From: Gammaproteobacteria bacterium
GTDB taxonomy: Bacteria > Pseudomonadota > Gammaproteobacteria > Pseudomonadales > Azotimanducaceae
NCBI GenBank assembly: GCA_027297435.1
Contig: JAPUIA010000222.1
Location: 1-34,529, forward strand
Reading direction: 5' to 3'
Length of the DNA stretch: 34,529 nucleotides
Shown: in pieces, positions 5,502 to 9,930 of the stretch
Position numbering within the stretch: the stretch's first letter is position 1
Layout of the letters: each line of letters begins with the position of its first letter
Notes under the pieces: generated by a model
Database searches by the model: none
Told to the model about the DNA's origin: nothing
The model's input: only the letters and a program-made list of their open reading frames with translations
Made by a program: the position numbers and the translations under genes

Positions 5502-5530
5502 ACCGGCAGCCAAGGCTACTTGCTGCCGGT
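5502..5530. terminator. Hairpin between convergent genes, overlapping the lyase stop codon
   Basis: A perfect 9-bp stem, ACCGGCAGC (5502-5510) with GCTGCCGGT (5522-5530), and an 11-nt loop that contains the TAG stop of the minus-strand lyase. It sits in the 45-bp gap between convergent genes and could stop transcription from either side, though no clean U-tract follows on either strand. It is a terminator candidate only. Confidence 0.45.
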
Positions 5531-6226
5531 AAAGAAAGGTCCCGATTTACCCAACTCCCCGAACAAGACTTTGGCGAAGTCTCCCCGATACTCCTTTGCG
5601 TGGCTCAGATAGTCTGCATCGAGCCGTCGGCGAAACATGCGTCCGGCAAACACCTTTGCCCAATCTTCCATCGGCATGATGGCGTCTTCAGAAGCGGGGT
5701 CGTATAGCGACCAGTTCTTGACGTGCTCTTCCGACCGGAAGAGATTCATACGCATTCAGTTGAAGGAGGACGTGACTTCGCCCCACTTGGTGAGCGGCAC
5801 GTTGAAGTGCGCAACCATTGTGGAAGGCTGCTTCTCCAGCAGTTCTTCGTCGGAAAAACGCAGCAGCATAGGCTCACCGCAGTCGAGGCAGCGTATGTCG
5901 ATGCGAACTTCCTTACCCGGAAACAGCCAGCGGACCGCCAGCGCTTCGAGTCCTCATTGCCCGTACCACTTCTGTATCCCGTCCACACTAATGAGATATT
6001 GGGTGGGTATGTTGGAGAACGGCGCCCAGGATTGAATGTAGTCGGTATCCGACGAGATCCAGCAACCGGCCGCGGCGGCAGCAGCCGATGCCTGCAGCTC
6101 TTTGGCATCGTCAGGCGTGGTGCCGAGAAATTGTGCCAGCTCCGTGTGGTGAGGGGCGCGGCCCGTCTCGATCACATGCTCGAGAATGGTCGTATAAGCT
6201 TTCTGAACCTGGTCCAACTCGGCCAT
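5516..6226 (-). CDS. MerB-like organomercurial-lyase-family selenoprotein with two in-frame UGA (Sec) codons
   Basis: One continuous frame of 237 codons from ATG 6226 (Shine-Dalgarno GGAGGA, 7 nt spacing) to TAG 5516-5518. It is interrupted only by UGA at 5954-5956 (codon 91) and 5756-5758 (codon 157). Read through, the 236-aa product has the MerB layout. A small winged-helix-like N-domain (about 5-50, 'HTELAQFLGTTPDDAKEL') comes first, then 'YGQ-U91-GLEAL', which matches MerB 'YAWCALDTL' around catalytic Cys96. Next is 'RCLDCGEPMLL' (C113, C116), like the MerB structural-Cys strand. Last is 'TSSFN-U157-MRMNLF...VKNW', which matches MerB 'QSFCCHVHFF...EDW' around Cys159. The MerB Asp99 position is Glu94. 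Both UGAs are followed by SECIS-like hairpins, and coding character continues after each. MerB cleaves carbon-mercury bonds in the cytoplasm; the substrate here is unproven. The alternative, a pseudogene with two nonsense codons, is much less likely. The MerB comparison is from memory. Confidence 0.88.
5726..5743 (-). promoter_or_regulatory. Bacterial SECIS element for the second UGA (codon 157)
   Basis: On the minus strand, 12 nt after the UGA at 5756-5758, CTCTTCC pairs perfectly with GGAAGAG (7 bp) around a GGTC tetraloop. The loop begins 19 nt after the UGA. Bacterial SECIS elements, read by SelB, lie inside the coding region with an apical loop about 16-37 nt after the UGA. The E. coli fdhF element also has GGUC at its apex. 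Both criteria are met. Confidence 0.85.
5926..5942 (-). promoter_or_regulatory. Bacterial SECIS element for the first UGA (codon 91)
   Basis: On the minus strand, GCTGGCG pairs with CGCTGGC (7 bp, two of them G-U wobbles) around a GTC triloop preceded by G, so the apex again reads GGUC. The loop starts 18 nt after the UGA at 5954-5956, within the range for SelB-dependent recoding. It matches the element behind the second UGA in distance and apex despite an unrelated stem sequence. Confidence 0.83.
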
Positions 6227-6347
6227 GACACGTTCCTCCGATTAATGAGTATGCGCTGCGACACCTAATGTAACTCTCGACCTACCTCGCACACAATCGA
6301 GCACCGGCTCAACGTACGCGCTCAGCCCGTTTTTCGTAGCCTTAGCT

Positions 6348-8772: not shown

Positions 8773-9930
8773 CTAAGAGATCATTACCGTTCTGGGAAAC
8801 TGTCCCGGATTTTCCCAGTACGTCGCCTTCTCGGCGACTTGATGCGCCTCCGGCTGGATGTTGCCATCGATGTCAATGGCTCTTGAAACCAGCGTGTGTT
8901 CGCCCGGTTTTGCATCGCGCCAATCGTAGGTGAACATCTTCCACGAGTATCGCGACGAACGACTATCGATGCTCGCCGGTTGCCAGGGCCCTTCGTCGAT
9001 TTTCACCTCGATGGCTTTGAGGGGTGTGCCATCATTCAGTGAGAATCCCAAAATCTTGTGCGTGTTCGCCGTTCGAGCCACGCGGACGATGACCGACATC
9101 AAATTCATTCGCGTAACGGATTCCTCCGTCCAGCGTTCTACGCCTCCAACTTCATACTTGCGCAGCGTGACGTAATCGCGCCCCATGAATCGCCCCATGA
9201 ACCGGTCGTCCTGGACGTGAATCTGCGTCAGCCATTTTACGTTGGAGACACCGAACCAACCTGGTACGACAAGGCGCAAGGGCCTTCCGTGATAGAGCGG
9301 CAGCGGCTCACCGTTCATCTCAAAGGCCAGCAGGTTTTCGTCTCTCAGCGCATCTTCGATCGACAGACTGCGTGCAAAATTTTGTTTGACTTCCTTGTTC
9401 CTGATCTTCTCGGTTCCTTCGTCGGCGCCGAAAAAGACGACCTCTTTCCCTTCGGGTCTCACCTGGCTTTCTTTCAGCAGCGCGCTGAGGCTTACACCGG
9501 CCCAACGCGCATTACCGACGAGACCGTACAAGAGCCGCTTCGCATTGCCGCCGCACTCGAATCCAGCGTCCAACTCGACAACCGTCCGGGCTCTAATTTC
9601 CTGGAGTGTCAGCTCCATCGGTTTGTCGACGAGTCCCGTTATTCTGAGTCTATAGTTGGACAGATCCAAATTGGGTTGATCGTAATGTTGAACGATGTAG
9701 AAGTCGTCGTTGGGTGTGTAGAAGCTGGAAATGGTTCGTGTGTCCAGGAAGTGAATTGCACCCGGTTTCGGTGGCCCGGGTTTGAAAGACGCCGGTATAT
9801 CGGTGAATGGAACAAGGCGCTCGCCTTGCGCCAAGGCCGGTAGTGGCCATTGCGCACTGGCAAGTGCGGCGAGACCTGTCAGGACGAGTCCTTTTTTGAG
9901 TACTTCCCGTCGCCCGATGTCGCTTTCCAT
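8773..9930 (-). CDS. Tat-exported sulfite-oxidase-family molybdopterin oxidoreductase
   Basis: 385 aa with a strong GGGAGGG Shine-Dalgarno 7 nt before the ATG. A twin-arginine signal (Arg7-Arg8 in 'GRREVLKKG', then hydrophobic 15-34 ending 'ALAQG') predicts folded export to the periplasm. The molybdenum-ligating cysteine is Cys126 in 'FECGGNAK', matching the family motif FECxGN. 'PLYHGRPLRLVVPGWFGVSNVKWL' forms the rest of the cofactor pocket. The C-terminal third ('VARTANTHKILGFSLNDGTPLKAIEVKIDEGPWQPA', then 'SWKMFTYDWRDAKPGEH') is the Mo-co dimerisation domain. It resembles sulfite dehydrogenase SorA or sulfane dehydrogenase SoxC. No cytochrome partner gene is adjacent, so the electron acceptor is unknown. 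It is probably the first gene of the minus-strand cluster ending with the lyase. Confidence 0.9.
   Translation of the reverse strand: MESDIGRREVLKKGLVLTGLAALASAQWPLPALAQGERLVPFTDIPASFKPGPPKPGAIHFLDTRTISSFYTPNDDFYIVQHYDQPNLDLSNYRLRITGLVDKPMELTLQEIRARTVVELDAGFECGGNAKRLLYGLVGNARWAGVSLSALLKESQVRPEGKEVVFFGADEGTEKIRNKEVKQNFARSLSIEDALRDENLLAFEMNGEPLPLYHGRPLRLVVPGWFGVSNVKWLTQIHVQDDRFMGRFMGRDYVTLRKYEVGGVERWTEESVTRMNLMSVIVRVARTANTHKILGFSLNDGTPLKAIEVKIDEGPWQPASIDSRSSRYSWKMFTYDWRDAKPGEHTLVSRAIDIDGNIQPEAHQVAEKATYWENPGQFPRTVMIS

Follow-up and report, generated by a model that had tools for sequence, protein, structure and literature searches.

A MerB-like gene of Gammaproteobacteria with in-frame UGA codons at both catalytic cysteine columns, most likely a double-selenocysteine protein

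Does a MerB-like gene interrupted twice by in-frame UGA codons encode a whole enzyme, with selenocysteine (Sec) in place of the two cysteines that grip the metal, or is it a remnant on its way to decay? The question is raised by contig JAPUIA010000222.1 (assembly GCA_027297435.1) from a gammaproteobacterium of the Azotimanducaceae, analysed here as one stretch of 34,529 nt (the window). A first reading of its sequence (the original prediction) had proposed an organomercurial lyase of the MerB type with Sec at both catalytic positions. We addressed the question by computing the gene and its conservation, the position of its UGA codons, the hairpins that follow them, the decoding machinery of the host, the predicted fold and the active-site columns. 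Together, our results indicate that the broken-looking gene very probably encodes a whole MerB-type enzyme, with Sec for both metal-gripping cysteines.

The gene lies on the minus strand (the original prediction named no strand), from the ATG at 6226-6224 to the TAG at 5518-5516 (Table 1), and reading through both TGA codons gave a protein of 236 residues, named P0001, with neither TAA nor TAG inside. Direct reading thus bore out that a single frame is interrupted by UGA91 and UGA157 alone; a Shine-Dalgarno-like GGAGGA is present just 5′ of the ATG, where a ribosome site had been claimed, and recounting gave the same 65 residues between the two UGAs. The plus-strand reading of 5516-6226, which contains a TAG and differs in sequence, was dropped.

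P0001 matched the Pfam family MerB (PF03243) over residues 70-191 (E 3.1e-19; 69.6 bits, with a gathering score of 27), and a whole-genome search returned the gene as the sole MerB match in the window's genome (54.5 bits, two TGA inside). The MerB fold is retained in the prediction, at 17-20% identity over the structural alignment with MerB and MerB2 (PDB 3f0o and 5c17; VIA-align). For comparison, 369 genomes of the class were drawn, yielding 37 MerB places besides the window's, none of which has an internal stop. Thirty of these (seven were left out) were aligned together with loci L050 and L051; L028 dropped out, leaving 31 other MerB-like proteins. As had been predicted, UGA91 and UGA157 fall on the columns of MerB Cys96 and Cys159. 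Among the 31 proteins, the Cys159 column holds Cys in 30 and the Asp99 column Asp in 27, the substitutes at the latter being Cys (L025), Glu (L032 and L033) and Trp (L047). Another MerB-like protein, L046 (G121:C3:15777-16136), has Gly and Asn in the two catalytic Cys columns and is unlikely to be a conventional lyase.

A pattern search in a collection of genome contigs gave 17 matches, including one relative, L017, from the assembly of Gammaproteobacteria bacterium SZUA-228; its protein is 86% identical to P0001 over the full length, and TGA stands at 91 as well as at 157. Of 206 genomes of the family to which the window belongs, 8 have a match, always interrupted by one TGA or more, and P0001 shares 46-50% identity with the seven sequences that come from the other genomes. 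These seven, L017 and the window's gene make up our alignment of nine. Column 157 is TGA in all nine; column 91 is TGA in three (the window, L017 and L058) and TGC or TGT in six, and TAA or TAG never occurs in either. Cys96 of MerB proper is therefore a UGA in three members and a Cys in the other six, and Cys159 is a UGA throughout. Sec is the chemical analogue of Cys, and interchange of the two between related proteins typically marks a selenoprotein; in-frame UGAs standing in columns of UGA or Cys are what we found, in line with the expectation that homologues would carry one or the other. The sequence landmarks YGQ-U-GLEAL, CLDC and SFN-U...VKNW are all present in P0001, but CLDC is not general to the family: it is retained in L017 and reads DLAT in the other seven sequences.

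Between the window and L017, the ratio of nonsynonymous to synonymous substitution rates (dN/dS) was 0.074 for residues 1-90, 0.084 for residues 92-156 and 0.075 for residues 158-236; these values are rough, because dS is 1.05-1.19, yet they are just as low between and after the UGAs as before them. Other pairs also gave low, often saturated values, with up to 0.24 for L054 and L058, a comparison that in part includes an N-terminus of L058 that cannot be aligned. The placement of the UGAs on the catalytic Cys columns, their recurrence in L017, the presence of UGA157 in all nine sequences and the low dN/dS indicate more than chance. As the other MerB-like proteins have Cys in both columns, the simplest history from the alignments would be that Sec replaced Cys first at 157, in the ancestor, and later at 91, in the branch of the window. 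Besides L017, L058 (G797:C79:9807-10439) is the only further family sequence with UGA at both columns, and it is unalignable before about residue 25, as a decaying copy, an assembly fault or a divergent start could each produce; because of this failed alignment, L058 may represent either a second gain of Sec91 or a decaying copy.

Each UGA of the window is followed by a candidate selenocysteine insertion sequence (SECIS) hairpin, CUCUUCC-GGUC-GGAAGAG after UGA157 (loop 19 nt downstream) and GCUGGC-GGUCC-GCUGGC after UGA91 (loop 17 nt downstream); for the latter, an alternative lowest-energy fold has seven pairs and a GUC triloop. The GGUC loop resembles that of Escherichia coli fdhF. Both hairpins occur in L017, where the base changes in the 91 hairpin preserve pairing; in the remaining seven sequences the loop past UGA157 reads CGUG. 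Over the nine sequences, the six-pair stem of UGA157 is paired in 54 of 54 cells, with one pair changed on both sides, and the top 12 of 231 eight-codon windows by synonymous conservation all overlap residues 153-171. Allowing loops of 4-6 bases, a GGU-loop stem of at least six pairs at 16-24 nt was found after 3 of the 974 TGA triplets that the two strands of the window contain, and two of these are UGA91 and UGA157. Random synonymous recoding produced such a stem in 455 of 20,000 trials (2.3%) at 91 and in 671 of 20,000 (3.4%) at 157. The third hairpin, on the minus strand near 9461, follows an out-of-frame TGA in a molybdopterin oxidoreductase gene (8773-9930) and is taken as chance.

Compared with dinucleotide shuffles, folding after UGA157 gave z values of -1.97 for the window, -3.58 for L017 and +0.19 for L049, whose best fold over the 39 nt past UGA157 is a different one; Rfam at gathering scores returned no match over the window. 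In a sister genome, the SelD gene (L059, G643:C12:295182-296105) contains an in-frame UGA followed by an AGCUC-GGUC-GAGCU hairpin, which supports the reading of GGUC-type hairpins here, SelD being a known selenoprotein family according to PMC13188914. That review also gives a model of the bacterial SECIS (bSECIS) with G in the first two loop positions, mostly G[G/U], lying 16-37 nt past the UGA and with a minimum free energy of at most -7.5. With a G[G/U] loop, the sequence after UGA157 fits this model in all nine genes, and that after UGA91 fits it in the window and L017 (lowest-energy loop GUC or GUU) and not in L058. One of the six Cys91 genes also fits; among the 974 TGA triplets of the window 321 pass, 133 of them with G[G/U], making the model a weak test when taken alone.

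The machinery named in the original prediction was found in the host genome, which is 97.8% complete: tRNA-Sec (70.9 bits, anticodon tca), selB (405.5 bits) and selD (279.2 bits), all three over the cut-off, and, directly before selB, a selA that is truncated where the contig ends (243.4 against 267.9 bits). The best SelD match of this genome is free of internal stops; the frame around it has 729 codons and may be a fusion.

Several observations, given in this and the following paragraph, weigh against a full-length lyase with Sec at both positions. Two in-frame stops, as automatic annotation would see them, suggest a pseudogene or a sequencing error. This is scarcely credible, since the identical two UGAs occur in a divergent second assembly, which takes the place of resequencing, UGA157 is invariant, neither column ever turns to TAA or TAG, and dN/dS is about 0.08 after each UGA. 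A less remote but still improbable alternative is that UGA157 alone is decoded as Sec, with UGA91 acting as a stop or being misread, so that the product is truncated or leaky. It would suit the Cys found at 91 in six of the nine sequences and the strict test for a four-base GGU[C/U] loop, which UGA157 passed and UGA91 failed, and after which we widened the test to loops of 4-6 bases. Folding after UGA91 is likewise unexceptional (z of -1.36 in the window, -0.85 in L017 and +0.14 in L058), and L058, the third sequence with UGA91, has an aberrant N-terminus and lacks the UGA91 hairpin. Even at UGA157, compensation amounts to one pair; the share of paired cells was attained by 11 of 500 shuffles, and the number of doubly changed pairs by 211 of 500. 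Against decoding of UGA157 alone, however, two organisms hold both UGAs under equal purifying selection between and beyond them, and the UGA91 hairpin is shared by the window and L017 with its pairs preserved. The machinery is also unevenly recorded among the eight genomes bearing the gene: five gave a selB match at a threshold of E 1e-60 and six a tRNA-Sec, the two that lack tRNA-Sec being 77% and 88% complete, and G797, the source of L058, has tRNA-Sec and no selB at E 1e-60. Because selB is over the cut-off in 161 of the 206 family genomes, its co-occurrence with the gene tells little, and its presence is necessary but not telling.

As regards function, Glu94 replaces Asp99 in all nine members; P0001 scores 34.1 bits with the NCBIfam model of MerB (cut-off 193) and 36.1 bits with that of SaoL (NF040728; cut-off 140); no mer gene was found among the ten window neighbours scanned with Pfam; no neighbourhood is conserved over the nine loci; and MerA is over its cut-off in two of the eight gene-bearing genomes and under it in six, including the window's (best 322 bits against 454). 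From the glutamate, the scores far under the NCBIfam cut-offs and the missing mer neighbours, the nine sequences, by their relationships, are a new subfamily of the MerB superfamily and not MerB proper. They form one clade in the tree (99/96), whose position beside L025 and L032 is unsure because of long branches, and share an invariant Cys55 that all 31 other MerB-like proteins lack. The original prediction of a double-Sec MerB-like lyase is supported: two of the conditions named there as refuting it, a host without selB/selC and homologues with neither Cys nor UGA in these columns, were checked and did not hold. It is refined in that the protein is a relative of MerB and not MerB proper. The replaced aspartate, the scarcity of MerA and the absence of mer genes among the ten neighbours scanned would also suit a protein with Sec at both sites that binds Hg(II) or another soft metal tightly, as a sink, and cuts no carbon bond; moreover, PMC8261052 describes Cu(II) binding by a MerB variant with Ser99. 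We regard such a sink as unlikely, though the most serious of the alternatives, because glutamate retains the carboxylate and is invariant, and the protein has preserved the fold of MerB along with its two ligand positions. That the gene belongs to the published SaoL family is very improbable: SaoL is the best NCBIfam match of P0001, but at E 0.001 it was matched by two of the nine members and MerB by eight, and SaoL is listed in PMC13188914 with a single Sec in a CU motif, which is absent here.

SaoL is a close parallel, a Sec-containing MerB-like protein listed in two reviews (PMC13188914 and PMC9312934); its one Sec in CU, given in the more recent of them (PMC13188914), contrasts with the two UGAs of the window's gene, in GQU-GLE and FNU-MRM. 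MbdU (NF045648, 'metal-binding double selenoprotein') is listed with two Sec in PMC13188914, but is a separate family and was not among the NCBIfam matches of P0001 at E 1 or better. No double-Sec MerB turned up in a literature search judged mostly from titles, and a word search found no mention of MerB in the main text of PMC12013277, PMC5029168 and PMC2398784. The original prediction, whose author knew of no described double-Sec MerB, agrees with what these titles offered, with the qualification that a one-Sec MerB relative, SaoL, is already published.

Taking all of this together, we consider it highly likely that the gene codes for a selenoprotein of full length, which belongs to the MerB superfamily, carries Sec91 and Sec157 and is most likely a MerB-like metal-carbon lyase. 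Sec insertion, lyase activity and the substrate are what we infer from the computed features, and a MerB-like mechanism is suggested because fold and ligands are retained. SelB and tRNA-Sec would insert Sec at each UGA, each with its own downstream SECIS hairpin. By analogy with MerB, two selenolates would hold the metal atom of methylmercury, or of some related organometal or organometalloid, Glu94, in the position of Asp99, would handle the proton passed to the leaving carbon, and the metal-carbon bond would be cleaved. Mercury is held more tightly by selenols than by thiols, and at neutral pH selenols are ionised; Sec ligands could therefore speed capture and hamper release, and Cys55 might help product release. 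More tentatively, and with clearly less confidence, the protein may be a metal-carbon lyase of a diselenol type that has no need of MerA; its two selenolates would act with a glutamate to cleave methylmercury or an organotin- or organolead-type organometal, leaving a product that is selenium-bound and inert.

Table 1. Positions of the gene, its UGA codons and associated features in the window
Feature	Position	Strand	Evidence
MerB-like selenoprotein gene, 236 codons plus TAG, two in-frame UGA	5516..6226	-	Pfam MerB match; dN/dS
Shine-Dalgarno-like GGAGGA, 5′ of ATG	6234..6239	-	read from sequence
UGA codon 91, MerB Cys96 column	5954..5956	-	alignment; TGA also in L017 and L058
UGA codon 157, MerB Cys159 column	5756..5758	-	alignment; TGA in 9/9
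Glu94 codon, MerB Asp99 column	5945..5947	-	Glu in 9/9
Cys55 codon in GCW motif, possible third thiol (putative function)	6062..6064	-	invariant in nine
Candidate SECIS hairpin of UGA91	5926..5942	-	same hairpin in L017
Candidate SECIS hairpin of UGA157	5726..5743	-	stem pairing over nine sequences; synonymous conservation

Gene context points to no substrate. Neighbourhoods were compared from mechanical calls of open reading frames, part of the neighbours being scanned; those scanned in the window include an MFS_2 transporter, TauD, a molybdopterin oxidoreductase, luciferase-like monooxygenases and an amidohydrolase. Acyl-CoA dehydrogenase recurs in the window, L075 and L077, luciferase-like monooxygenase in the window and L077, and the MFS_2 transporter in the window and L074, and there are two further pairs; with families recurring in two or three of the nine loci and none in most, we rejected the neighbourhood as a clue to function. 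In genome G796 (L076:3820-9073), the selenoprotein gene lies directly 3′ of genes for a molybdopterin oxidoreductase, an Fe-S protein, an ethylbenzene-dehydrogenase-like subunit and a nitrate-reductase-delta-like protein. In G784, a gene for a MerR-family regulator (L075:2058-2462) on the opposite strand ends near the 3′ end of the selenoprotein gene.

The subfamily was found in one bacterial family (the 8 of 206 genomes) and in L017, and is patchy even there, as at least eight other genomes of the window's genus have no match. In a draw from the order, 4 of 390 genomes matched: that of the window, G643, and two others in which the canonical MerB residues are present; in a draw from the phylum, the nine-row profile matched 1 of 398, the window's own. 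Viral contigs gave 50 pattern matches with no relative among them, and plasmids gave no match.

These results point to a MerB-like subfamily that ordinary annotation would chop into fragments, and in which evolution appears to have turned the two metal ligands of a MerB-type enzyme into selenium. Selenium-mercury chemistry is usually treated as a matter of toxicity or antagonism. If a diselenol lyase independent of MerA did operate here, organometals poorly handled by thiol MerB would be turned over, with the metal held or handed off, and bacteria without MerA over the cut-off would have a selenium-based route of demethylation. The subfamily also points to a possible turnover of organometals in genomes without recognisable MerA. 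Since natural Cys/Sec and Sec/Sec versions appear to exist at 46-50% identity, the role of selenium at a soft-metal site is directly testable.
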